This document shows, one piece after another, positions 10,603 through 45,289 of a DNA stretch of 64,000 nucleotides. Source of the DNA: Candidatus Woesearchaeota archaeon (lineage in GTDB: Archaea > Nanobdellota > Nanobdellia > Woesearchaeales > JABGUJ01). The notes beneath the pieces are model-generated. The model was not told where the DNA came from. It saw only the letters and a program-made list of their open reading frames with translations, and did not search any database. Each line of letters opens with the position of its first letter. Positions within the stretch are counted from its first letter, which is position 1. The DNA lies in assembly GCA_018646625.1 (NCBI GenBank), contig JABGUJ010000001.1:503534-567533 (forward strand). The letters run 5' to 3'. A program made the translations under genes and the position numbers.

Positions 10603-11751
10603 ATGCCTAATCTATACACTACCTTTGATCATACTGTTAGTCAGAAAAGAATTCGCACTTTATACGGTGGAGTTTATGCAATGCTTGCAAAAGAGTTTGG
10701 TGCGAAACTTTTATCTCCCGATTTCTTCAAACATGTTCAAGCGAGAAATTTTGAAGATTCATTAGATCCTGTTGCTGAACTAGCTGATGCGGATTTTGTT
10801 TTTCATTCAGGCATGGATTTGCAGATGCAAGTATTTGATCAGGGGGTATTACCGCTAAATCTTTTTGCAGATCAAGAGGATTTTGATATGGATCAATATT
10901 CATTTCGGAGATCTGGAACTTCTGATATTGAACAAAGAACAAATAGATACTTATTTGCACACATTCCTGATAAAACTCATTGCCTATATGTTCCCCAAGA
11001 CTTCAAATGTACGGACATAACTGATAAGATGTCTGCCGTACAACTATTTGATGTTCTTAAAGTTCCATCACCACATTCTTTACCATTAAGTACAGTTCTC
11101 AAGTCATCACCTTATAGATTTGCAAAACACAGACGAGGTTCAAAATCACTACAAGTACATTATTTTGATGAAGATACTAATCCTTTTGGTGAATTTGGTA
11201 TTGATAACAGAGATTGGTTAGTTCAAGCAGAAGTGCCTTGTCCAACAAACTTTCCTTCATTTCTAAGGGTGAACTTTGATTTTGGTGCAATAACTGCAGT
11301 GGCTATTGAATATGATCCGACATTTGGAAAGGTTCCTGATCTGGCTAATGTAGATATTTTACCATTAACTCTGCATGGTTTTGAAACAAACCATAAATTA
11401 ACGGATTTGGAAAAACACATTCTTAATTCATATGGCATATCTGAAGAAAAGAGAGAAATTCCTGAGGAAGTTATGCGATACGCTAACTCTGTTATGGGTT
11501 GGTGTAACGGAATCGGTATACAGTGTGCGGGCATTGATTTTTTGAAAGATAAAGAAACCGGTGACTGGAATTGTGTAGATGTAAATAGATCTCCTGGTGC
11601 AATGATATATTATGTTCTAGAACGCACCAGAGACGTGAATCCATTATTCAGACAACCTTACAGGAGAGACGAGGATTTTACTCCTTTAAGGCGCGCAGCA
11701 ATTCATCAATACGTACGAGAACCTTTTGCGAAACTTATTGGTGCGGACTAA
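10603..11751 (+). CDS. ATP-grasp-like protein
   Basis: A 382-residue protein. The C-terminal region has the pattern of an ATP-grasp fold: GIQCAGIDFLKDKETGDWNCVDVNRSPGAM resembles the metal-binding end of RimK-type ligases (D-x-h...E/D-h-N-x-x-PG), with DVN in place of EVN. The middle has a Lys-rich segment and a DWLVQAEVPC strand that could line the ATP site. The usual reaction is ATP-dependent amide ligation; the substrate is unknown. The start is leaderless, about 20 bases after an ACTTAAATACT box. The assignment rests on one motif region. Confidence 0.6.
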   Translation: MPNLYTTFDHTVSQKRIRTLYGGVYAMLAKEFGAKLLSPDFFKHVQARNFEDSLDPVAELADADFVFHSGMDLQMQVFDQGVLPLNLFADQEDFDMDQYSFRRSGTSDIEQRTNRYLFAHIPDKTHCLYVPQDFKCTDITDKMSAVQLFDVLKVPSPHSLPLSTVLKSSPYRFAKHRRGSKSLQVHYFDEDTNPFGEFGIDNRDWLVQAEVPCPTNFPSFLRVNFDFGAITAVAIEYDPTFGKVPDLANVDILPLTLHGFETNHKLTDLEKHILNSYGISEEKREIPEEVMRYANSVMGWCNGIGIQCAGIDFLKDKETGDWNCVDVNRSPGAMIYYVLERTRDVNPLFRQPYRRDEDFTPLRRAAIHQYVREPFAKLIGAD

Positions 11752-12680: not shown

Positions 12681-12708
12681 CCGTAAAATACGGACATAAT
12701 ATATAAAC
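12681..12708 (-). promoter_or_regulatory. Promoter and operator of the Lrp gene
   Basis: The inverted repeat CCGTA-AAA-TACGG (12681-12693) sits at the expected transcription start, next to the TATA box AATATATAAAC (12698-12708, read on the plus strand). Further TACGTA/TTACG elements lie at 12710-12724. Occupancy would block transcription initiation. Confidence 0.65.
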
Positions 12709-12734: not shown

Positions 12735-14939
12735 CTATTCTGAAATGTGCGTTGCTACCTGTCTTTTCAATACACCCAGGTAGTGCTCTCTAAGATTTCT
12801 GCTACCGCAAGCTAAAGATACCATTTGAAAAAGTTCGCTGTAATCTCTAGCCTCTAGCTTATCCACAAAAGAGGAATATTGGGGGTGATTGCAGTTAACC
12901 CTTAAAGCAACATCCATTACTTTCAATTCAGGACTAAAAGCATGTATTGTAGACAACAATGGTTTTCTTGAGGAAATATTTTCTGTTTCATAGAAATGAA
13001 CACCCATGCGATCGATACCAGAAATCCAAGATGTCCCCGAGTCTGAAACATATTTGCCAAAACCGTTGTATGCTTCTCTAAGTGAATCTTCAAGACAATT
13101 TGTAGATAAACATCCTTGAAACTTCTTCACAACCTTATACTTTTTGTATCGACTTGGACCGTGCTTTTCTTCTGTTTGCATAAGTCTACTTACAGGACCT
13201 CTCTCTGATTCTCCTCCCACAAGATCATATAAATCATCCAACTTATTTTCACATTTTCTAACGTGAGATCTCCTCAACCTATATGCGACATAGCTTAACA
13301 AAGCAGCACCACCAATTATTTCAGCAGTTACGGCACCAGAAGTCAAAAGAAAATGAGTTTGGTCTGCCGCACTAGGCTCAACAACTTGGGATGCGGTCTC
13401 CGCAATAACTCTTTGTGTGTATTCAACCCTGCTTGCAGATTTTTGGACTGCTTCGGGATCTTTAGAAAATGTTGAGTAGAGATATGAGAAAATTGCAGAG
13501 CCTAACCATACACTTCCTGCCGCAAGGCCAGTTCTAAACGTACCTTTGCTTGCTTTAGCCAAATGCTCTCCAGCTTTTCCTGAACAACGATACCCTGAGT
13601 GTAATCCTAGTTGTCTCAATCTTCCAGCCAAATCCGAATCATCTACGATTGAACGATGAAAATATACTGTTGGTTCACGCATAACCAAAGTCGGCATAAA
13701 AGAAGGATAATCGTATAAATTAATAATGCCTTGCTCAGCGAGTGATTTCAGCTCATTAAAACTAATTTTATCTTTTGAATAATGTGCAACTTCAAATATT
13801 GCTTCATTTTCTAGAGTTGGAATTGATACCCCTGATAAGAGATACGCTTGAGCATGAGGAATAAATTCTGGATTTTCTTTTACAAAGTCTCCAAATGCAA
13901 CAAACATCTCGTCAATCTTTTCTCTAACATACTCGGCAACTTTAACTTTTTTTGCTTGAGCTATATTGGCATCAGTTCTAGATAAGTCAGTTCTAACATC
14001 TCTGTGATTAAGTGCACTCAAAATTGGGACCGATCTAACTAAGTCCAATCCATCTTTACTATCAAAGAGATCTTCTATTGTATGTCCATCTAGCTTAAAC
14101 CTAATTCCGTTATTATGAAGAACAAGATGACTTCCTTCGTAAATTGGGCCCAAGCGATCATGATTTCTAAACAAATCTCTGTGAGTATTATTTCTTAACA
14201 AGAAGGTTCCCTTACCATCTCTATCCGAAAAACCATATGAGAATATAACTTTTCTACGACCATCTTTATGAACGTCAAAAAGCTCTTCTGCTGTTTTATT
14301 AATCCTTTCACCATTTATGGTTATAGGAACTTCAGCTAGTTCACAATAATTTCTAATAAAATCAATTTCACGTTGATAATTCACATTTTTTCTCTTAACA
14401 GTTATCCTTGTGCCTTGCTCAGAAAAACTACTTTCTTTGTAGACTGCACTGTGCCCTAAAGCCCCATTAGTATCGAGATATTCAATGGATTTACCATCTT
14501 TATATGATTCAACTCTTATTGAACTGGGCTTTAATCTTTTTGTAGATGTGAAGCCAACACCAAACCCCCCTACATAACTAAGTGCAATTTCCCTTGCATC
14601 TCTCATCTCCTTGCCTGCTTTTTTATGAACATTGCCTAAAAGAAGAAGTTCATTCTCTATATCACGTTGTGTAAGACCTGTGCCGTTGTCTTGAATAACA
14701 ACCTCTTCTGCATCTATTTTAATATCAATACTTCCCTTCTCTGATGCATGAGTACCATATTTTTCAATAATGCTATCGAGCGCATTTTGAACTAATTCCC
14801 TACCTACTGCTAACGCGTTTGGAAACATTTCAAATGCAAGCTCTTGCAATGCTCTTTCTGGATCTATGCTTATCGCTAGTCCGCCAGCTGGCGAGACCAT
14901 AACATCCAAAGTATCCAATGAACTAGTTGAGTGCAGCAT
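12735..14939 (-). CDS. Membrane-anchored GHKL (Hsp90/MutL-type) ATPase
   Basis: A 734-residue protein with an N-terminal GHKL ATPase domain: N-box RELVQNALDSI (E48, N52), G1 motif DNGTGL (84-89) and G2 GGFGVGF (124-130). A transducer-like domain follows, with RTDLSRTDAN near residue 320. Two membrane spans are visible in the second half (FRTGLAAGSVWLGSAIFSYL and the stretch GAVTAEIIGGAALLSYVAY), with a ~150-residue tail after them. It is not Hsp90, MutL or topoisomerase VI-B by domain order. Its start overlaps the end of the upstream GHKL-transglutaminase gene by 17 bp, so the two are translationally coupled and probably act together. Confidence 0.85.
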   Translation of the reverse strand: MLHSTSSLDTLDVMVSPAGGLAISIDPERALQELAFEMFPNALAVGRELVQNALDSIIEKYGTHASEKGSIDIKIDAEEVVIQDNGTGLTQRDIENELLLLGNVHKKAGKEMRDAREIALSYVGGFGVGFTSTKRLKPSSIRVESYKDGKSIEYLDTNGALGHSAVYKESSFSEQGTRITVKRKNVNYQREIDFIRNYCELAEVPITINGERINKTAEELFDVHKDGRRKVIFSYGFSDRDGKGTFLLRNNTHRDLFRNHDRLGPIYEGSHLVLHNNGIRFKLDGHTIEDLFDSKDGLDLVRSVPILSALNHRDVRTDLSRTDANIAQAKKVKVAEYVREKIDEMFVAFGDFVKENPEFIPHAQAYLLSGVSIPTLENEAIFEVAHYSKDKISFNELKSLAEQGIINLYDYPSFMPTLVMREPTVYFHRSIVDDSDLAGRLRQLGLHSGYRCSGKAGEHLAKASKGTFRTGLAAGSVWLGSAIFSYLYSTFSKDPEAVQKSASRVEYTQRVIAETASQVVEPSAADQTHFLLTSGAVTAEIIGGAALLSYVAYRLRRSHVRKCENKLDDLYDLVGGESERGPVSRLMQTEEKHGPSRYKKYKVVKKFQGCLSTNCLEDSLREAYNGFGKYVSDSGTSWISGIDRMGVHFYETENISSRKPLLSTIHAFSPELKVMDVALRVNCNHPQYSSFVDKLEARDYSELFQMVSLACGSRNLREHYLGVLKRQVATHISE

Positions 14940-17900
14940 TTTGAGTATGTTTTCCTAATTTTGCAAAGTATTTTGAGCCAGGATTAACCAACCCATCATC
15001 AGTTGATACATCCAAAACAACATCAATGGCGAGTTTATCAATCGGAGTAGGGTTGCCATTTCCAAGTCCTACAATGAGGGGGTGGTTCATATTGAGATAA
15101 AGTGTGCCTGATTGATATTTTGCAAGACGAGGCGTTGAATTTCTTATATGATAATCAAACTTACCCGGCTTTACAGCCTTTGTTTTTCTTTTTATTTTTC
15201 TATCCAGAGCAAGAACCCCTTCCACTCTATCAACGAGTGATCGTTCCGGTTCACTAAGTTCTCGTTCATCTTCAAAAATATGAAAGTGAGAATCTTGATC
15301 CACGCTTGCAAGTTTGTATCCTAAAACAGATTCGACACATCCTCTTACAAACGATTGGGTTGTTGAAGTTAACGATCCCATGTCAAGAACAGGGATTCTT
15401 TTTTGAGTATAGTGGGGGGTGGTTGAAGTATTTTCATTGCTATATAGAATCTCTCCTTCTCTTTCACCAATCTCAACAAGATCAAACATTGATAAAGGCG
15501 CACCATAGTTGTGTGCATAAACTATTGGCTTACTCATCAAAGCTTGAATATAATCAGGAAGATGTTCTCTAATCATAGTCTTCTTGAATTTTTTCATTGC
15601 TTCTTTATTAAAACCCAAAGTACTGGAGTGCCCTTTTCTGCCAAATAATCTTTGCTCAAAAAACTTTAATTCAGACATATTTAACGAAAGAAGATCATAC
15701 TCTCTACTTAATTCATCATCTGAAAATAAATTAGAATCCAATCTGTATCTTTTTCGTAAAGATCTCTTTATTCTGTGTCTTCCAAATATAACACCTCCAA
15801 TACCTAGTAACCCGAGAGCCACAGGCCAATATGGTGGATCGTTTGTTTTTTTTGGATCAGTAACTTCAACAGGAACCCACATATCTTTTTCTGTAGAGTA
15901 CCACTCAATCCATGCATGACCTACATCACCAACAGCGCCTACAACAACTCTGCTTGGAACGCCGCTTTCTCTCAAAGAATAAGCAGCAACTTGCGCAAAG
16001 TCTAAACACACGCCCATCTTTTTCTCAAGATAAACTTGCATATTATTACGAACAAGTTTACTCATTTCTAAACCCAATCCGTCTAGAATATCTTTGGTGT
16101 AAGTCATCTCCTGCTTCACAGATGATACAATTCTATCAACAACTTGGTCTGTAGTAAGTGCACTTCTCTCGTTCCAATCAAGAGCGAAAGGGGATTTTAC
16201 ATCACGCAAGGTGCGTTTGTATTCCCACAAATCATCAAGACCGAACATCTTCATAGAAGTTATTGGATCTTTATCTCTTAGTGCCACAAAAACACCATCC
16301 GAATTAAGGTGGTCATACGTTCCAGTCTTCAAATAATGACCCATTCCATGAATTGCGTATACCAACTGTGTTTCTCTATGTGCTTTTGCGAATGCATCAT
16401 TTTCTTGAGTGGGAGGTTCAAAACTCACAGTCCGGGATACTTGTGGTACGACAATATCTACTAACGACGCAGGATCACGTTCGTAACGTGCAGGCGCCCG
16501 GCCAGTAACTATTTCAGAACCATGATCAACAAACAGATTAATAAAACCCTTGCCCAGGCCGGATGTAAAATCAACTACAGAACCAACCAGCCAAGAAGCA
16601 CCATCATACATTGTTTCTAGAAAGTTGCGACCATTCTCTTTCAAGCCTTCTTCAAAAAATAGTGCACCAGTGCCAACAAGGCTTTGGTCTGAATCTTTCT
16701 CTGATGTGCGAATTCTCTCTTGCAATTGTGAGTATGTAACATTTGGATCTAAATGTATATTCTCCTCAACTTGGACCACTTGAACTCCAGGAGTTCTTTG
16801 TGTTTTAGGTTTAATATCATAAAAACCCTCATACACACCTTTGCCAAAACCAAAAATCATTAAGGCGAGCGCACCCGCCGCAACAGCTCTTGTAGTATAC
16901 TTACCAGCATTAGACCAGAAATTTATAGAGTCTTTGCCAAATATCTTTCTTCCTAAACTGTAAATGGGTTTTGCGGCTAACAATGCACCAGCACAAAACC
17001 CGATAGTTAAAGGACCACAATCCTTAAGATAGTAGAACCCAATCGCTGCAGCTCCTAACTTCGCTGCACGCATCACGTATTTTCTATTAGTTATTGCTCT
17101 ATATGTAGTATCAACCGCTCTCTCTCCTAATGTAAGATCATCAATACCTCTAAAATTATTGGGTTGTAATCCCAAACTAGAAACTGTAAAGTCTCTATCG
17201 AAACCATCCACTCTTCTTTCAATTAAATTCATAACAGCAGAATGAACTTCGTCTTCTAAAAAAGCATTTCTACTGAGGACTGTGCGTAAATGTGGACTAC
17301 TTATTTCAATTTCTAAATCATTTCTAGAGATTCCATAATTTTGTACGAGAATGTCATGTTGTCTAACTCTAGCAACACCTTTTCTTGATCCTTCTCTATA
17401 ACTCACATGACCGGTAACATCAATCTCCTCGGCTAAATCACTATCGCTCATCACTACTGGAACAGAAATATCCCTTGGAACAGGAGTCTGATTAAGAACA
17501 AAAGAATGAGAATCATATTCTCTATTTATGGCTCTAGCAACCGTTTCGGGTTTGAATCCAAAAGGGTGAACATGGACGTTGTGTGTTTCATTAGGAACAG
17601 CGCTACACCACCGGTGCATCTCTTGAATGCCTGGAATAACGTAGTTCTCCGCAAAGTAAACATCAGAAAAGGCAACAACCCCTCCTTCAAGATCATAGTT
17701 GTCAACACGAACACTAATATCTTGTCCATAATCGTCCGTAAAAATATGATTCAATCGTCTAGCTGTAACTTCATCTGGCATCTGGAGATATATTGTAACT
17801 TCGGTGCCTTCTTCGATATCACTCTCAATAAACTTATCTGCATAACCAAATTTGAAATCAGAACTTACTACTGTCTTCCAGGCATCATGTCCCTCTTTTT

Positions 17901-18285
17901 TAGATTGAACTTCCACACCCATTAACGTATCATACTTAAACAAAGATAAGAAACCAATACCTTTTTCTCCAGGTCTTTTAGGATCAAACTTTTTGTCGCT
18001 ATTGAATGCCCTCAACAAAAGATTCAACGCATCATCTTTACTCATGCCAATTCCATTGTCAACATATCTTATTCTATAAACGCCACCATCGTTTACCTTT
18101 TCGAAGAACATATGAGAATCTGTAGCAAATGCCCCTAAAGCATTTTGAATCAATTCTCTCAACGCAGTTTCTTGCCTGTGATATTGATTTATTACGCTAT
18201 CCATTATGTTTCTGAGACTTCTATCATCTAGCTCATCAACATGAAATCCTTTAGAATGGGCAATTATTCTATCATCTAACGTCAT
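14923..18285 (-). CDS. GHKL ATPase fused to a transglutaminase-like protease, membrane protein
   Basis: A 1120-residue protein. The GHKL ATPase domain comes first: N-box LRELIQNALGAF (about 43-52), G1 DNGIGM (76-81), G2 GEKGIGF (106-112). Hydrophobic spans follow at about 410-435 and 465-485. A transglutaminase-like cysteine protease domain at about 640-815 has Cys760 (MGVCLDFAQ), His790 (DVGHAWIEW) and Asp810 (VEVTDP). A third span lies at about 820-835, then a ~280-residue basic cytoplasmic-looking tail. I infer an ATP-gated extracytoplasmic protease or peptidase, working with the overlapping downstream ATPase. The ATG at 18285 has GGAGA upstream and a TATA box at 18318-18329. I know no named family with this architecture. 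Confidence 0.85.
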   Translation of the reverse strand: MTLDDRIIAHSKGFHVDELDDRSLRNIMDSVINQYHRQETALRELIQNALGAFATDSHMFFEKVNDGGVYRIRYVDNGIGMSKDDALNLLLRAFNSDKKFDPKRPGEKGIGFLSLFKYDTLMGVEVQSKKEGHDAWKTVVSSDFKFGYADKFIESDIEEGTEVTIYLQMPDEVTARRLNHIFTDDYGQDISVRVDNYDLEGGVVAFSDVYFAENYVIPGIQEMHRWCSAVPNETHNVHVHPFGFKPETVARAINREYDSHSFVLNQTPVPRDISVPVVMSDSDLAEEIDVTGHVSYREGSRKGVARVRQHDILVQNYGISRNDLEIEISSPHLRTVLSRNAFLEDEVHSAVMNLIERRVDGFDRDFTVSSLGLQPNNFRGIDDLTLGERAVDTTYRAITNRKYVMRAAKLGAAAIGFYYLKDCGPLTIGFCAGALLAAKPIYSLGRKIFGKDSINFWSNAGKYTTRAVAAGALALMIFGFGKGVYEGFYDIKPKTQRTPGVQVVQVEENIHLDPNVTYSQLQERIRTSEKDSDQSLVGTGALFFEEGLKENGRNFLETMYDGASWLVGSVVDFTSGLGKGFINLFVDHGSEIVTGRAPARYERDPASLVDIVVPQVSRTVSFEPPTQENDAFAKAHRETQLVYAIHGMGHYLKTGTYDHLNSDGVFVALRDKDPITSMKMFGLDDLWEYKRTLRDVKSPFALDWNERSALTTDQVVDRIVSSVKQEMTYTKDILDGLGLEMSKLVRNNMQVYLEKKMGVCLDFAQVAAYSLRESGVPSRVVVGAVGDVGHAWIEWYSTEKDMWVPVEVTDPKKTNDPPYWPVALGLLGIGGVIFGRHRIKRSLRKRYRLDSNLFSDDELSREYDLLSLNMSELKFFEQRLFGRKGHSSTLGFNKEAMKKFKKTMIREHLPDYIQALMSKPIVYAHNYGAPLSMFDLVEIGEREGEILYSNENTSTTPHYTQKRIPVLDMGSLTSTTQSFVRGCVESVLGYKLASVDQDSHFHIFEDERELSEPERSLVDRVEGVLALDRKIKRKTKAVKPGKFDYHIRNSTPRLAKYQSGTLYLNMNHPLIVGLGNGNPTPIDKLAIDVVLDVSTDDGLVNPGSKYFAKLGKHTQNAALN

Positions 18286-18408
18286 TATTTTTTCTCCGAA
18301 GAAATAATGAAGACAATAATATATAAACCTTTCTAATTATAACTACTACACAGTGACTAACAAAAAACACCCCAAACCTTATAAATCTTGCAGTAGAACC
18401 AGTCTGGC
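18286..18408. promoter_or_regulatory. Divergent promoters of the GHKL pair and membrane protein operon
   Basis: The leftward TATA box is AATATATAAACC (18318-18329), the rightward CCTTATAAATC (18377-18387). The rightward start at 18409 would be leaderless. Confidence 0.6.
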
Positions 18409-20610: not shown

Positions 20611-21726
20611 TTAAGCTTTAACAAATTCTCCTTTCCTTACAACATATTTGTCATAAGGCTTAGAAACTTCACCAAAGCTATCAAACTTAAAATTTCCTGA
20701 CGCACCATGATATATGTTCATTGCATACAAATAATTCTTGATATCTTCCCCCTTGCAGCTTCCGGACTTGCAAGCTTCCTGAAATATCTGAATGATATCG
20801 TATGTTTCGGGTCCATATGCATTCCAGCCTTCTCCGTACTCCGATTTATATTTTTTAGAGAATAAAAACAACTCCTCTGATTCTGGGACGCCTGGGGCAG
20901 TCACAACCAATCCGGAAGTTAATTCTTCCGCATACTCTAGAATGGTATCATCCTTGGATGCATCAGCAGCATAAACAGGAATATCCAGACCGATTTCATT
21001 CATCTGTTGAAGAATAATGCCTGCTTGCTTTGCAAACGCCAACATATAAATTCCATCTGGTTTAGTTTCCTTAATTTTCAACAACTGAGTTTTAACATCC
21101 TTTGTTTCCATCTCGAATGTTTCTGCGGCAACTACCTTGCCTGATTTTTCAAATTCCTCGACGAAAACATCCTTTAAACCAACTCCCCAATCCATATTAG
21201 GATAAATGACTGCAACGTTACTCAAATCGGCAGCCAACATCAACTTCGCACCTATTTTACCTTGGCCTGCATCTGATGGAACCACTCTGAAAGTATAATC
21301 TCCTGCTTCCTTAATCTTTGGATTGGTTGCCATTGGAGAAATCATAACTACTTTTGCAGCTTCTGTTATTGGTGCAATGGATAAAACTTCTGGAGAACAA
21401 CCAACGATAAGAAAACCAACTTTGTTGATGTTGATTAACTTCTGTGCAGCAAGTGAAGCATCTTTGCCGTTACATTTTCCATCTTCATAAATGACTTGCA
21501 ATTCTCTTCCATTAATTCCGCCTTGAGAATTAATTTCTTTCTCTACCATCATTATGCTTCTAACAGATGACACTGCCAAACTTGCTGCATCTCCTGTTAG
21601 GGGACCAATGTAACCAATTTTTATTGGCTTCTGACTTGCAACAACATTTCCTGAAACGTTATTACCGCAACCAACCAACAAAATACAAATCATGACAGCT
21701 ACCGCTATCTTCAATAAATTCTTCAT
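20611..21726 (-). CDS. LivJ-type (branched-chain amino acid) binding lipoprotein
   Basis: A 371-residue extracytoplasmic binding protein. The signal is MKNLLKIAVAVMICILLVGC with a lipobox ending LVGC, followed by NNVSGNVV. The mature part starts IKIGYIGPLTGDAASLA, the usual opening of type I periplasmic binding proteins for amino acids or related small ligands, and continues with LAAQKLININKVGFLIVGC. The ATG at 21726 has GGAGG eight bases upstream. No transporter permease or ATPase is encoded nearby. The divergent Lrp gene and the shared operator suggest joint control. It is one of three paralogs in the window. Confidence 0.9.
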   Translation of the reverse strand: MKNLLKIAVAVMICILLVGCGNNVSGNVVASQKPIKIGYIGPLTGDAASLAVSSVRSIMMVEKEINSQGGINGRELQVIYEDGKCNGKDASLAAQKLININKVGFLIVGCSPEVLSIAPITEAAKVVMISPMATNPKIKEAGDYTFRVVPSDAGQGKIGAKLMLAADLSNVAVIYPNMDWGVGLKDVFVEEFEKSGKVVAAETFEMETKDVKTQLLKIKETKPDGIYMLAFAKQAGIILQQMNEIGLDIPVYAADASKDDTILEYAEELTSGLVVTAPGVPESEELFLFSKKYKSEYGEGWNAYGPETYDIIQIFQEACKSGSCKGEDIKNYLYAMNIYHGASGNFKFDSFGEVSKPYDKYVVRKGEFVKA

Positions 21727-21813
21727 TTCGAACCTCCAAAACCTAAAACCCCTAAGAACTGAAATCTTGAAGCACACTCTGATATATTATACTATCTTAA
21801 GAAATTATTGCGT

Positions 21814-26018: not shown

Positions 26019-26777
26019 ATGGATATTGAACCATTACGGAAGATAGGGCTCACGGAGGGCGAAATCAAGGTATATTTATCCTTAATCAGATTAGGTGAAA
26101 CAACATCTGGGCCGCTTGTGGATGAATCTGGAGTTTCTGTATCAAAAGTATATTCTATCTTGGATCGATTAGCGAAGAAAGGCTTAGTTAGTCATATTGT
26201 AAAAAGAAAAACGAAATACTTCCAAGCGGCAGATCCTAACCGGTTAGTTGTGTACATGCAAGAAAAAGAAGCAGAGTTGAAAGAACATGAAAAAAAGATA
26301 AAAGAAATGATTCCTCTTTTAGAACTTGAAGGTAATTCTGCAACAACTGCTGAGACTGCACAAATATTTGATGGTTTGAGAGGCATTCAAACTGCGAGAG
26401 AGAGAACTTTAAAAACAACAAAGAAAGGGGAAGACATGTGGATCATAGGCATTGCACGAACCCCCTACGAAGGAACCATGAATCCTTATTTTCAAGAATA
26501 TCATAAAAGAAGATACAAGAAAGGAATTAAATGTAGATATCTATTTAATGAATATGCTAGACGACCATTCGGAGAAACTTCTAAAGACTATCCTTTAAGC
26601 GAAGTACGTTACATGCCTGAGGGCTTAATCACCCATAGTTGGATGGAAATATATGCAGATACTGTGACCATCGGAATAAATAAAGGCAAATCATTTTCAA
26701 TTGTAATTCAGAATCACGAAGTAGCAAACTCTTTCAAAATCTATGCTCAACTTCTCTGGAGTATGGCCAAACCTTAA
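26019..26777 (+). CDS. TrmB family transcription regulator
   Basis: A 252-residue regulator. The N-terminal winged helix is LRKIGLTEGEIKVYLSLIRLG...VSKVYSILDRLAKKGLVSHI, followed by YFQAADPNRL and a coiled linker, then a ligand-binding domain of the sugar-sensing TrmB type. The divergent neighbours make inositol phosphate, so a sugar-phosphate or inositol ligand is plausible but inferred. Twin operators lie between its TATA box and ATG, consistent with autoregulation. Three further TrmB proteins are encoded in the window. Confidence 0.92.
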   Translation: MDIEPLRKIGLTEGEIKVYLSLIRLGETTSGPLVDESGVSVSKVYSILDRLAKKGLVSHIVKRKTKYFQAADPNRLVVYMQEKEAELKEHEKKIKEMIPLLELEGNSATTAETAQIFDGLRGIQTARERTLKTTKKGEDMWIIGIARTPYEGTMNPYFQEYHKRRYKKGIKCRYLFNEYARRPFGETSKDYPLSEVRYMPEGLITHSWMEIYADTVTIGINKGKSFSIVIQNHEVANSFKIYAQLLWSMAKP

Positions 26778-32010: not shown

Positions 32011-32739
32011 ATGGATCAAAAACATCTAGAAAGCACAGGATTAACCGCCGCAGAATCTAAAGTATATCTTATGCTTCTTGAACAAGGTGCCAGTCTAGCG
32101 GGAGTTATCTCGAGAAATACAGGAATACACCGAAGATCCGTATACGACGCTATTGAAAGACTAGTACAGAAGGGGCTTGTTTCTTACATTAAACAAAACA
32201 ACCGAAAATACTTTCAAGCAGCAAGCCCCGAAAGATTCTTAGAAATATTAAAAGAAAAAGAAGAGAACATAAAGAGTGTTTTACCAGAACTAAAACTTTT
32301 ACAGCAAATGTCCGAAGGTAAAAACGAAACTCTATTCTTTAGAGGAAGAACCGCACTAAGTACCGTTTTTGATGATCAAATAGAGAAAGAAGAAGACATT
32401 CTTGTATTCGGAACAACCCTTAAGTCATTTGATTATATGAAATACTACTTCCCCCATTATGACCGGAAAAGGGTTGAAAAAAAGATCAAAGTTAAACTCA
32501 TTCTCAACGAAGAAGATAGAGATTTATACCTCAAACTTAAACCAAAATTAACTGAAGCAAGATTCGTACCAAAAGAAGTTGTATCTCAAGTTGCTACTAA
32601 TGTCTATGGCAGAAATGTTGCCATCGTTAGCTGGCGTTTAGACAAAAACGATCCCGTGGCATTAATCATTAGACAAGATGAAATATCGGAGAGCTATAGA
32701 AGTTACTTCAATTTCATATGGAAGAGTGCAAAAAAATGA
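32011..32739 (+). CDS. TrmB family transcription regulator
   Basis: A 242-residue regulator with a winged helix (LTAAESKVYLMLLEQG...RRSVYDAIERLVQKGLVSYI), YFQAASPERFLEILKEKEE linker and C-terminal effector domain beginning ETLFFRGRTALSTVFDDQ. The following lipid-kinase-type gene starts within its stop codon (ATGA), so the two are co-translated. A palindrome upstream of its TATA box suggests autoregulation. The ligand is unknown. Confidence 0.92.
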   Translation: MDQKHLESTGLTAAESKVYLMLLEQGASLAGVISRNTGIHRRSVYDAIERLVQKGLVSYIKQNNRKYFQAASPERFLEILKEKEENIKSVLPELKLLQQMSEGKNETLFFRGRTALSTVFDDQIEKEEDILVFGTTLKSFDYMKYYFPHYDRKRVEKKIKVKLILNEEDRDLYLKLKPKLTEARFVPKEVVSQVATNVYGRNVAIVSWRLDKNDPVALIIRQDEISESYRSYFNFIWKSAKK

Positions 32740-35886: not shown

Positions 35887-36951
35887 TCAATATAAGACGA
35901 AAGACCCATTTTTCACTGTCTTAATCACGATCTCTTTTCTAATGTCGCCAAAGGAATCAAATTTACTTAAACCGGTCACCCCTTCGTAAGTCAAGTTATA
36001 CAATTCATCTTTTATACACGTAGAATCTTCCCCACATACTGATAAAACCAAAGAAATGATCTGAACACCATCATACATTAATGCTGCAAAACCCTCACTC
36101 ATTCTACCATATTTCGCTTTATACTTTTCTTGATACACAACATTTAATGGATTATTAGACAACGGATCAAAATGGTAAGGATATACAACACCTTCTGCTG
36201 CAGAACCTGCAATCCTAATTAACTCCTCATTTTCCATAGTGGGTGTACCAAAAATTGTAAAATTCAATCCCAACTCTCTGGCCTGTTTCACCGCTAACCA
36301 ATTATAATTAACATACAATAAAGCATCAACATTGTACTGACTAACCTTCATCAACTCTGTGCGAAAATCATTTGCATCTGATTCAACAATCTCTTTAACC
36401 AAAACAGAACCATTAAAATTTCGTTCAAACTCGTCAACAAATCCATACCCGAAATCTGTATTGACTAAGATGATGCCTATATCATCAACCAAGGCAGATG
36501 AAGCTAACTTTTCTGCATAATAGAATGCATCTGGTTGAACTCTGAATACATAATCACCTGCATAACGTATTTTTGGTGAGACTGCAGAAGCTAATATGAC
36601 TGTTTTACTTTTTTCTGCAATGGGAGCCATAGCCAAAACATCGCTTGAGCACCAATCCCCTAAAACAACAGAAACTCCATTAACATAAACTAATTTATTC
36701 ATCGCAGTCGCCGCAGTCGCAGGTATACATTGACTATCTTCATATAATATTTTTAATTTAGAATCTCTTTTAGAATTTATTTCCTCAACAGCAAGATCTA
36801 TTGCTTCTTTTATGTATTCTCCATATTGTGCGGATGTGCCGGATAAAGGAAGAATTGCTCCTATTTCAACATAATCTTCTTTTACAACCTGTCCACTAAT
36901 ACTGCATCCAACAATCAGAGCCAAAGCTAACGCCAAAACAAAAATTCTCAT
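35887..36951 (-). CDS. LivJ-type binding lipoprotein
   Basis: A 354-residue extracytoplasmic binding protein. The signal MRIFVLALALALIVGC ends in a lipobox, followed by SISGQVV as in its two paralogs. The mature domain opens VEIGAILPLSGTSAQYGEYI, typical of amino-acid-binding type I proteins. The ATG at 36951 has GGTGG five bases upstream. It is divergent from a TrmB gene and no ABC permease or ATPase lies nearby. Confidence 0.9.
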   Translation of the reverse strand: MRIFVLALALALIVGCSISGQVVKEDYVEIGAILPLSGTSAQYGEYIKEAIDLAVEEINSKRDSKLKILYEDSQCIPATAATAMNKLVYVNGVSVVLGDWCSSDVLAMAPIAEKSKTVILASAVSPKIRYAGDYVFRVQPDAFYYAEKLASSALVDDIGIILVNTDFGYGFVDEFERNFNGSVLVKEIVESDANDFRTELMKVSQYNVDALLYVNYNWLAVKQARELGLNFTIFGTPTMENEELIRIAGSAAEGVVYPYHFDPLSNNPLNVVYQEKYKAKYGRMSEGFAALMYDGVQIISLVLSVCGEDSTCIKDELYNLTYEGVTGLSKFDSFGDIRKEIVIKTVKNGSFVLY

Positions 36952-36983
36952 CTCTACCACCAACAAAAGATATAAAAAACCAA

Positions 36984-37019: not shown

Positions 37020-37751
37020 ATGAGATCCGAATTAGAACTTTTAGGATTAACGGAAGGAGAATCTAAAGTCTATCTTGCATTATTAGAGCTTGGTTCTAGT
37101 CTAGCTGGGCCAATTATAAAGAAAACCAAACTACATCGAGCAACAACATACCAAATCTTACAAAGACTTACAGAAAAAGGGTTAGTATCATTCACTATAA
37201 TGAAAGGTAAAAGACATTTTGAGGCTGCCGATCCTGAACAATTCTCAAGACAACTAAAAGAAAAGCAAGACATCTTATCACAGATCCTGCCTGAACTAAA
37301 ATTAAAGAAATCATTAGCAAAACAATCGCAAGAAATTACTGTCTACCAAGGAAGAAATGGAATTAAAACAGTATGTGGACATATAATTAAGCGGCTCTCG
37401 CCAGGAGGGACATACTATGATTTTGGAGTTTCAGGGCTGTTCAGAGATATAATGAAAGAGTACTGGGATAAATGGCAAACTATGAAACAGAAGAACAACA
37501 TCAAAGCAAAAGTTATATTCAATGAATCCATAAGGAAAAACAAATATCTACTACAAGACATAAAAAACACATCATACAAGTTTGTACCGGATGAATTCTA
37601 TTCTTCTACTGACACAATGATATTGGATGACACTATCATATTATTCATATGGACAGGACAACCGCCTTTAGCTGTAATGATAAAGAACAAAGAAAATGCT
37701 GAAGGTTACAAAAGACAATTTAACCTTATGTGGAAAAATGCAAAAAAATAA
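37020..37751 (+). CDS. TrmB family transcription regulator
   Basis: A 243-residue regulator: winged helix LGLTEGESKVYLALLELG...RATTYQILQRLTEKGLVSF, HFEAADPEQF linker, and effector domain from ITVYQGRNGIKTVCGHI. It is divergent from a LivJ-type lipoprotein gene, and a palindrome at its transcription start suggests autorepression. By context the ligand may be what the lipoprotein binds; this is inference. Confidence 0.92.
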   Translation: MRSELELLGLTEGESKVYLALLELGSSLAGPIIKKTKLHRATTYQILQRLTEKGLVSFTIMKGKRHFEAADPEQFSRQLKEKQDILSQILPELKLKKSLAKQSQEITVYQGRNGIKTVCGHIIKRLSPGGTYYDFGVSGLFRDIMKEYWDKWQTMKQKNNIKAKVIFNESIRKNKYLLQDIKNTSYKFVPDEFYSSTDTMILDDTIILFIWTGQPPLAVMIKNKENAEGYKRQFNLMWKNAKK

Positions 37752-42914: not shown

Positions 42915-44027
42915 TTATTCAGATGCATGTTTCCATGAATCTTTAAAATGTTGTATGTGTTGTTTCACTACCTCTTCATCTTCTACGAGTAATGTTTTCA
43001 ACTCTTGTGAAGAATAGTATGTCACAGACATCTTCGTTCCACATATGAAATAAGTAGCTGGTCCACAAACATATGGTGGTAAAAATCTATACTGAAAATA
43101 AAACTCTTGGGATCTCCCTTTGCAATATTCTCGATTTGCTTTGCTATCATTATTTATGCTTAAAAATGAAAGTCCTTTCCTAACTCTCTCTGACTGCCAC
43201 TTATCACCAACTTCTGCACCATATTGTTTGCGCAATCTTGTATCATATCCCATGTTTAATACTTCTTTACCTCCGCCTTCAAGAACTTCAAAGATTGCAT
43301 ATACAAAACCTTCTTTACCTGTAAATAATCTAGAATTTTGATTCCACAATAAATCGAATTGTTGACGAAATCCTTGTGCGAATTCTTTATTATCTATGAG
43401 AACACCAATCAACTCCTCTCCCCAGATAGAAAGTATTGCCTTATCGCCATACGAGTATGTTACTAGTGGACTTTTATATTCCTTTGACAAATATTTATAC
43501 TCTGAACTCTCTGTTGGTTCAGTTCCTAAGGTGAACATTATCTTATGGTTAATTCCATGTTTCTTTACATCTCTAAAGTATTGCTTTGCAAACACAGGCA
43601 TTTTCTCTCTCAATTGACCACCAGAACCAAACAAACAAACTTCTTCTCCTGTTTTAATAATATCTCTATACAAATTTTTCATTCCTTCCGTTCCTTTGTA
43701 AACTTCAACTTGTGTTTTCTCCCTAGAAATCTCTTTTAGTTTTTTCAACTCATCAATATTATCTTCAATACGTTTTCTTTTCTCATCGATATAACCTAAC
43801 AAGCTCTCAGGATCAGATGCTTGAAAATATTTTTTGTTACTTTTTTTAACATAACTAACTAGCCCTTTCTCTTTCAGCTTTTCCAAAGTATCGTAGATAT
43901 GAGTTCTATGCTGGCCCGAAAACTCCGCTAACCTGCTAACAGAGCAAGAACCATTTTTGAGCAAAGCTATGTAGATTATTGCTTCTCCATCTGACAATCC
44001 AATTTCTTTCAAAAAGCCTGTGTTCAT
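42915..44027 (-). CDS. Long TrmB family regulator with extra C-terminal domain
   Basis: A 370-residue regulator. Residues 1-240 follow the usual TrmB plan: winged helix IGLSDGEAIIYIALLKNG...RTHIYDTLEKLKEKGLVSYV, YFQASDPESL linker, and effector domain VEVYKGTEGMKNLYRDI. Another ~120 residues follow (from FAIFEVLEGGG-like VYAIFEVLEGGGKEVLN), absent from the other three copies here, perhaps a second sensor. The ATG at 44027 is leaderless behind a TTAAATATGG box. It is divergent from a LivJ-type lipoprotein gene. Confidence 0.88.
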   Translation of the reverse strand: MNTGFLKEIGLSDGEAIIYIALLKNGSCSVSRLAEFSGQHRTHIYDTLEKLKEKGLVSYVKKSNKKYFQASDPESLLGYIDEKRKRIEDNIDELKKLKEISREKTQVEVYKGTEGMKNLYRDIIKTGEEVCLFGSGGQLREKMPVFAKQYFRDVKKHGINHKIMFTLGTEPTESSEYKYLSKEYKSPLVTYSYGDKAILSIWGEELIGVLIDNKEFAQGFRQQFDLLWNQNSRLFTGKEGFVYAIFEVLEGGGKEVLNMGYDTRLRKQYGAEVGDKWQSERVRKGLSFLSINNDSKANREYCKGRSQEFYFQYRFLPPYVCGPATYFICGTKMSVTYYSSQELKTLLVEDEEVVKQHIQHFKDSWKHASE

Positions 44028-44064
44028 AGTATTATTAACACAGAAGCCATATTTAAGCCTTTTC

Positions 44065-44098
44065 GTCCGAATAAGGACTACATAGATATATATAGATA
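44065..44098. promoter_or_regulatory. GTCC-N6-GGAC operator and TATA box between TrmB and lipoprotein genes
   Basis: The inverted repeat GTCCGAATAAGGAC (44065-44078) lies between the leftward TATA box (44048-44060) and a rightward TATA-rich stretch (44081-44098). Its position allows one regulator to control both divergent genes. Confidence 0.6.
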
Positions 44099-44143
44099 TT
44101 TTCGCTTGAAATACGTACAAAAAGGCGATTGTTGGAGGAAATA

Positions 44144-45289
44144 ATGAGATTAAAATTCATATTAGCGGTAGCTATACTAATATTAATTGTTGGGTGCGGT
44201 AGCAACACGATATCTGGTAAGGTAGTTCAAAAGCAAACATTAGAGCCAATAAAGATTGGTGCAATTCTTCCTTTATCTGGTGCTGCGTCTTTCATAGGAG
44301 AACCTGAACTTGATGGTATGATTCTTGCAGTTGAAGAAATAAATTCTGATGGGGGAATTAATGGGCGAGAACTAAAACTAATTGTTGAAGACTCACAAAC
44401 TAATCCTGTGGCTGCAGTGAAAGCAGCAAACAAACTAATTAATCTAGATAATGTAGATATTTTGTATGGGACAACAACGGGAGCTAGTGGTGCTGTTGCT
44501 CCTTTTGCTCAAGAGAGCAACACTGTGTTCATATACGAATCAACAACTGTAAAGTTTGCGACAGAAAATGATTTGGTTTTCGGAACCTATCCTAATGCGT
44601 ATGACTTCTGCAAACAAGCCGCTCTTTTAGCAATACAAGAAGGAAAGAAAAGACTTGCTTTGATTGCACTAAACTTTGATGCATCCTTCGACTGTAAACG
44701 AGGAATTGAAGATGCAACATCCAACACTGACACCACTCTTGTATTCTTACAAATGTATGAGATGGAAGAAAAAGATTTCAGAACAAATCTGATGAGAGTT
44801 AAAGAAGAGAACATTGATGGTTTGCTTCTATATTCTTACTCAAAGAATAATGTTCCTCTCTTCCAACAAGCATTAGATCTAAACATCAATACAACAATGA
44901 TCTGTCCTTTATTAACTGCTAGCTGTCACGGTGTGGATGAGATTGATGCTCTGGCAAAGAACACCAAGATATTGGATGGTGCTTTAGGCACAAACATACC
45001 ATTTGATTCCAAGTCTGATGACCCTAAAATGCGAGCATTTGTTAAAAGGTTTAAAGAAAGATTCAACAAAACTTTGGGCGTGGAAGAAGCATTCACTTAC
45101 GATGATGTATATTTAATCAAAGAAGCTCTAACCAAATGTACAGCATTATCGACGGAATGTATCAAAGAATCTCTGCTTTCTACAACATTGGATGGGATCA
45201 GTGGAGAAATTGTATTTGACAAAGACGGGGTTGCAACCAGAGACATAGCATTTGTTAAGTTTGAAAACAAAGAATGGGTTGGGTATTAA
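44144..45289 (+). CDS. LivJ-type binding lipoprotein
   Basis: A 381-residue extracytoplasmic binding protein. The signal MRLKFILAVAILILIVGC ends in a lipobox followed by SNTISGKVV. The mature domain opens IKIGAILPLSGAASFIGEPE and continues with AVKAANKLINLDNVDILYG, the type I amino-acid-binding fold. The ATG at 44144 has GGAGG seven bases upstream. No transporter subunits lie nearby; the divergent TrmB gene probably controls it. Confidence 0.9.
   Translation: MRLKFILAVAILILIVGCGSNTISGKVVQKQTLEPIKIGAILPLSGAASFIGEPELDGMILAVEEINSDGGINGRELKLIVEDSQTNPVAAVKAANKLINLDNVDILYGTTTGASGAVAPFAQESNTVFIYESTTVKFATENDLVFGTYPNAYDFCKQAALLAIQEGKKRLALIALNFDASFDCKRGIEDATSNTDTTLVFLQMYEMEEKDFRTNLMRVKEENIDGLLLYSYSKNNVPLFQQALDLNINTTMICPLLTASCHGVDEIDALAKNTKILDGALGTNIPFDSKSDDPKMRAFVKRFKERFNKTLGVEEAFTYDDVYLIKEALTKCTALSTECIKESLLSTTLDGISGEIVFDKDGVATRDIAFVKFENKEWVGY

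Follow-up and report, generated by a model that had tools for sequence, protein, structure and literature searches.

The window, a 64,000-nucleotide stretch of DNA from a Candidatus Woesearchaeota archaeon (contig JABGUJ010000001.1, assembly GCA_018646625.1, a genome of 1.57 Mb in 4 contigs), contains two tandem genes, L and S, whose products each combine an Hsp90-like ATPase module of the GHKL type with membrane segments, the product of L carrying a transglutaminase-like (TG) domain in addition. The component folds are known, the system as a whole is new. Both genes lie on the minus strand, L first and S second, with an overlap of 17 bp; if S is started from its second methionine (codon 14), the overlap disappears and the tandem order is unaffected. 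The original prediction, made from the sequence of the window, had described overlapping genes with intact GHKL boxes and membrane spans in both, and these features are confirmed at the stated coordinates (Table 1).

Both products score above the curated cut-off of the Pfam model HATPase_c_3 (1e-8 for L, 7.5e-7 for S) and contain the expected series of motifs, namely R43-E44-L-I-Q-N48, D76-NGIG-M, G106-EKGIGF, G160-T161 and L337-S-R339-N in L, and R47-E48-L-V-Q-N52, D84-NGTG-L, G124-GFGVGF, G176-T177 and L319-S-R321-T in S. When a profile of 12 members of the wider family to which they belong (see below) is compared with the PDB, it matches HtpG (3.5e-21), TRAP1 (1.3e-19) and Hsp82 (2.1e-18) over both the N-terminal and the middle domain, and all 60 matches listed are of the Hsp90 family. 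The SR motif, invariant in 12 of 12 members, is aligned by this profile onto the Hsp90 catalytic-arginine motif LNvSRe. Searched alone, the middle domain gives weak matches, with 0.011 for the best one to Hsp90, and the majority of the matches listed are still Hsp90. Hsp90 also ranks first for a profile made only from the GHKL gene of a seven-genome subgroup, and the best 50 Foldseek matches of the L model are all Hsp90, TRAP1, HtpG or GRP94. Neither L nor S reaches the cut-off of the curated Hsp90 models (PRK14083, 52.3 bits against 455; HtpG, 34.9 against 371), and the Hsp90 C-terminal dimerization domain was not found, as the Pfam scan gave no PF00183 match and the C-terminal region holds another module. 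Thus, L and S are Hsp90-like, but neither is an Hsp90. On these same two tests, and with no known system joining such parts, we rejected the view that the pair is merely an odd Hsp90. Assignment to MutL, topoisomerase VI B or another GHKL family was also rejected, since the family-profile matches listed are all Hsp90; L alone matches MutL and topoisomerase VI B weakly. Matches in three genomes (G021, G022 and G056) were identified as MutL and excluded from the family. A sensor histidine kinase was discarded too, the GHKL domain being N-terminal in L and S and the Pfam scan giving no HisKA or response regulator match.

The TG domain of L is recognized by the Pfam model Transglut_core (PF01841) with E=6.6e-11 and 42.9 bits against a cut-off of 23, and the TG and GHKL domain calls are far beyond chance. 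A triad of Cys760, His790 and Asp810 had been proposed for this domain. The Cys and the His are invariant in all seven aligned TG domains, whereas the third catalytic residue is probably one other than Asp810: four residues past a conserved Trp, the acid position holds Asp in six of six relatives and aligns to Glu807 in L (W803-V-P-V-E807), three residues before Asp810. Glu807 would be compatible with activity, since non-canonical triads exist in TG-like enzymes, such as the Cys-His-Ser triad of the vasohibins (PMC4866520). A focused model of residues 640-840, made with four relatives, reaches a predicted local distance difference test score (pLDDT) of 80-94 in its core and a predicted TM-score of 0.67; in it Cys760 would begin a helix, with His790 in a strand that follows. 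Its best matches in the PDB (E 2.8e-4 to 1e-3, query TM-score 0.39-0.43) are the periplasmic domain of TgpA, the putative cysteine protease 3isr, TglA, the transglutaminase 4xz7 and LapG. Cys760 is the sole Cys of the segment of L that is predicted to lie outside.

That the TG domain was extracytoplasmic had been part of the original prediction, and the predicted segments and basic flanks very probably put it there. In L, the loop at residues 445-466 is basic (5 K/R, 1 D/E) and so is the tail from residue 836; both place the TG domain outside, provided that the segment at 401-420 is counted as membrane-spanning. The fusion protein of genome G235 and the full-length members of the seven-genome subgroup have one membrane segment before the TG domain and one after it, with basic residues past the second. 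In three separate groups, the TG domain has membrane segments on either side and the basic flanks face the cytoplasm; its predicted position on the outer side of the membrane is well supported. The cytoplasmic C-terminal region ends in an hhNxxHP module that is common to L, S and many related GHKL proteins, with the Asn and the His invariant in 11 aligned sequences; the region has no named match in the PDB or Pfam. Three related GHKL proteins end in HExxH zincin-like motifs (L058 5640-7430; L068 6847-8943; L060 9608-12070). These ends, and an HExxH motif in the VWA partner of some wider GHKL pairs, prompted the idea that hhNxxHP is a degenerate zincin, which is unsupported (profile-profile probability 0.1). 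The shared location of the hhNxxHP region and the HExxH modules of the three relatives is suggestive of a tie between them, to which the profile comparison lent no support.

Table 1. Features of the L-S locus (positions in the window; membrane sidedness as predicted).
Feature	Position	Strand	Description
Gene L	14923..18285	-	1120 aa; intact Hsp90-like GHKL and middle domain, membrane segments, predicted extracytoplasmic TG domain, membrane segment, cytoplasmic C-terminal region
L residues 1-365	17191..18285	-	GHKL N-domain and Hsp90-type middle domain; SR motif S338-R339
L residues 401-485	16831..17085	-	Helices spanning the membrane ahead of the TG segment, clear at about 426-444 and 467-485 and weak at about 401-420; helices also in the model
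L residues 714-807	15865..16146	-	Transglut_core; Cys760, His790, Glu807 at the usual Asp position
L residues 817-835	15781..15837	-	Membrane segment past the TG domain, then RHRIKRSLRKRYR
L residues 836-1120	14926..15780	-	Cytoplasmic C-terminal region ending in the hhNxxHP module (TLYLNMNHPLI)
Gene S	12735..14939	-	734 aa; intact Hsp90-like GHKL and middle domain, membrane hairpin, cytoplasmic C-terminal region
S residues 30-345	13905..14852	-	GHKL N-domain and middle domain; SR motif S320-R321
S residues 470-548	13296..13532	-	Membrane hairpin, outer loop of 41 residues; segments about 470-488 and 530-548
Archaeal B recognition element (BRE)/TATA-like element	18318..18333	-	GAAAGGTTTATATATT; upstream of L; matched by eye
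Second TATA-like element	12698..12707	-	TTTATATATT; just 3' of S, serves the next gene (Lrp/AsnC regulator); matched by eye

Among 353 genomes of the order, a two-gene GHKL pair with a TG domain between membrane spans in one partner is present at eight independent loci: the window, genome G235 and six loci of the subgroup. Co-occurrence of homologs of the two genes, on which the original prediction hinged, is thus observed repeatedly, and since the same kind of pair exists in at least seven other genomes of the order, L and S look like a real and so far undescribed machine, not like chance neighbors. A profile of the subgroup TG gene matches seven of the 353 genomes, and a scan of genome contigs returned the identical seven loci, all labeled as metagenome-assembled genomes (MAGs) of Woesearchaeota or Nanoarchaeia. 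The subgroup TG gene is the second of its pair and encodes a degenerate GHKL domain, a membrane segment, the TG domain and another membrane segment (G171, G310, G191, G280, G286 and G314; complete copies of about 740-780 aa). The copy in G189 ends before the TG domain and, with its joint as in G191, is not counted separately because the two are near-identical (branch 0.0085). At all five loci that are joined within one contig (G171, G310, G286, G280 and G191), the first 4 bp of the TG gene overlap the 3' end of a membrane gene with intact GHKL, and the G314 pair has the same gene order, divided between two contigs. Three of the five complete subgroup genes pass the Transglut_core cut-off (G171, 8.3e-5; G191, 1.1e-5; G280, 5.6e-5), while those of G310 and G286 fall below it, yet align over the Cys, His and Asp that are invariant in all five full-length relatives and present in G235 too. 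The GHKL domain of these TG-bearing partners (hhalign against the family: probability 96.5, E 1e-9) has lost the ATP motifs and has an invariant TKSR motif. Closest in architecture to L is the G235 protein (L064 4658-8389), an independent GHKL-TG fusion of 1243 aa with GHKL motifs intact by eye, membrane segments at 375-393 and 986-1004, a Transglut_core match at E=3.2e-6 and a C-terminal region; its gene overlaps that of a GHKL-like partner, which is truncated where the contig stops and interrupted by a frame change.

A census of TG domains in the order gave 49 matches in 46 genomes, and the only ones in GHKL-pair genes are those of the eight loci, the others being separate proteins, commonly of 500-770 aa, on contigs without GHKL pairs. 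In a tree of GHKL domains, the seven-genome subgroup forms one clade (100/100), and the branches of L, S and the G235 fusion are long and have no settled place, which is compatible with one or several origins of the TG arrangement. The identity of L and S to the other members is 23-24% at most, a distant relationship. Used alone as a query of genome contigs, L found no relative and thus no close homolog, the relatives being reached by a search of 60 related genomes and then by profile; 378 genomes sampled from the class, a sample without any known positive, gave no match to the subgroup TG gene. Near-identical pairs (L067 and L081/L082) occur in MAGs SI047_bin129 and SI075_bin52, which are filed under different genera; the contig is short and mis-binning is possible.

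The TG-bearing pairs are part of a wider family. The search of the 60 genomes with L gave distant GHKL pairs and the 12-member profile gave more over the 353 genomes. Across the order, many genera have adjacent GHKL pairs, whose two genes usually overlap or lie no more than about 130 bp apart, and the majority of the pairs consist of one soluble and one membrane-anchored partner. In G003 and G309, and partly in G216 and G294, they share an operon with genes for a MoxR-type AAA ATPase, an HExxH/VWA protein and a product of about 290 aa; the full five-gene operon, of which no description was found, is seen at L013 3016-12064 and L059 1-7924. Other neighbors are a ClpB-like AAA protein (G083) and a DnaJ-domain protein (G040), the latter followed downstream by three tandem copies of the GHKL pair (L014 4635-19501). 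No TG domain was recognized by Pfam in the members of wider pairs that were scanned. Among the papers searched, all from outside subscription journals, none links GHKL to MoxR and VWA, or transglutaminase to Woesearchaeota; an earlier mention of the wider GHKL pairs is possible.

The L-S pair and the pairs of the seven-genome subgroup stand alone, without MoxR, VWA, DnaJ or ClpB-like partners. The BRE/TATA-like element upstream of L is likely the promoter of an operon, and because the following Lrp/AsnC gene has a separate element, a two-gene L-S operon is suggested. The surrounding genes are ordinary cellular, housekeeping ones. Elsewhere in the window are four genes related to one another (26019-26777, 32011-32739, 37020-37751 and 42915-44120), of which the two scanned encode TrmB-type regulators, three further genes related to one another (20611-21777, 35887-36966 and 44129-45289), of which the one scanned encodes a Peripla_BP_6 substrate-binding protein, and a gene for a 382-aa protein without a Pfam match (10603-11751).

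How might such a pair work? The reading that we prefer, and to which we give an even chance, is that L and S form a membrane-spanning Hsp90-type ATPase clamp, likely a heterodimer, whose ATP cycle controls an outer TG-fold enzyme. The membrane would hold the two proteins together, the GHKL/middle-domain arm of each being cytoplasmic, and on its outer face there would be a TG-fold cysteine enzyme, perhaps a peptidase or a catalyst of protein cross-linking or acyl transfer. As ATP drives the clamp to close and open, the movement would be relayed via the membrane helices to switch, expose or move the TG domain, which may then act on a cell-surface or envelope protein. Here we infer the heterodimer, the direction of control, the enzyme activity and the substrate alike. 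In the subgroup pairs, the ATP site survives in one partner and is gone from the TG-bearing one, where TKSR persists; an obligate and asymmetric dimer would be expected to show this pattern, and we favor a heterodimer accordingly. More broadly, though with somewhat less confidence than an even bet would imply, these pairs may constitute a new class of gene-paired membrane Hsp90-type ATPases, in which a cytoplasmic ATP-driven clamp works an outer enzyme (here a TG-fold cysteine enzyme) in a domain of life reported to be without HtpG. Several points weigh against the clamp. The full-length model of L is poor (mean pLDDT 44.6). Segment 401-420 is weak (19-residue means below 1.0), which leaves some doubt about the topology of L when this protein is taken by itself. 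With Glu as its acid residue, L is less certain to be active than its relatives are. Finally, the majority of GHKL pairs in the order lack a recognized TG domain, and control of such a domain need not have been the founding function.

It is possible, albeit unlikely in our estimate, that the signal runs from the outside in, with the TG-fold ectodomain acting as a ligand-binding or inactive sensor that controls cytoplasmic Hsp90-like ATPases working on intracellular clients. Glu807 permits a non-catalytic TG domain, and the GHKL pairs without a recognized TG domain adjoin intracellular chaperone-type genes (DnaJ, ClpB-like AAA, MoxR); however, the invariance of Cys, His and Asp in the subgroup, and their presence in G235, are as expected for an enzyme and not for a sensor. 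Those same neighbors, to which the HExxH/VWA genes can be added, and the N-then-middle Hsp90-like architecture would also suit a membrane chaperone or quality-control device that folds, extracts or assembles membrane or secreted proteins, with the TG domain as an optional tool for trimming or cross-linking. This too we regard as rather doubtful, as neither the window pair nor the subgroup has such partners and no Hsp90 C-terminal domain was found.

The original prediction had an ATPase clamp driving or gating an extracytoplasmic peptidase, perhaps in surface remodeling, defence or host contact. The conserved pairing and the predicted outer position of the TG domain support part of it, and the Hsp90-like nature of the ATPase and the occurrence of GHKL pairs well beyond those with a TG domain extend it; the driving or gating and a proteolytic activity are conjectural. 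Defence or host contact finds no support: the neighbors are ordinary, the defence library gave no weighty match, phage and plasmid records gave none to L, and viral contigs none to a related GHKL gene. We therefore hold it very improbable that the pair serves in conflict or defence, directed at viruses or at other cells through an outer effector domain that varies, although TG pairs are patchily distributed (eight independent loci among 353 genomes) and the GHKL part is weakly similar to TmtA in PADLOC (best 1.1e-5). The TmtA match is restricted to about 100 GHKL residues, as is possible for any GHKL protein, and a full-length match was not obtained. The low identity of L and S to any other member might even suggest two unrelated genes that overlap by accident, but recurrence of adjacent GHKL pairs in many genera, and of the TG-bearing kind at eight loci, contradicts this, and we give it hardly any credence.

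If true, a two-gene, membrane-anchored Hsp90-like family in Woesearchaeota would be a new setting for Hsp90 mechanics, with an ATP-driven conformational change relayed from one side of a membrane to the other. In the TG-bearing branch this idea becomes testable, because ATPase and enzyme reside in one polypeptide and the output of the enzyme can be assayed outside the cell. Many DPANN archaea rely on contact with other cells, and control of the cell surface is a central open matter in these organisms.

The known Hsp90 chaperones are soluble or organellar, and each is a dimer of a single gene product. L and S resemble Hsp90, HtpG and TRAP1 in their GHKL motifs, in the order of N-terminal and middle domains and in an SR motif that resembles the catalytic-arginine motif and lies close to where the aligned middle domain ends, but they form a system of two genes that is membrane-anchored, archaeal and equipped with a predicted outer TG domain. 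Archaea are reported to lack HtpG, and a single Hsp90-like gene was noted in Methanosarcina mazei (PMC1525184). The Hsp90-like domains of the sacsin type (PF25794, NF047352) have the ATPase module in common with L and S; the matches are weak and below the cut-off (0.0017 for L, 1.6e-7 for one relative), and the membrane and TG parts are foreign to sacsin. The GHKL pairs with MoxR AAA and VWA or DnaJ/ClpB-like neighbors are, like L and S, two adjacent Hsp90-like genes with usually one membrane-anchored product, but they have extra cytoplasmic partners and no recognized TG domain. To our knowledge, TgpA has neither a GHKL ATPase nor an Hsp90-like partner. What TgpA-type proteins, the best fold match of the TG domain of L, share with it is an outer-face TG-fold domain anchored by membrane helices (PMC3507681). 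In logic, though not in homology, the L-S pair is reminiscent of LapD-LapG, where a cytoplasmic nucleotide signal controls an outer TG-fold cysteine protease (PMC3032545 and PMC3032553). The Pfam scan gave neither receptor domains for cyclic di-GMP (c-di-GMP) nor a separate LapG protease in the L-S pair. LapD, the sensor of c-di-GMP in that system, has a protease encoded apart from it as its target, whereas L joins ATPase and TG domain in one polypeptide and is accompanied by a second ATPase, S.

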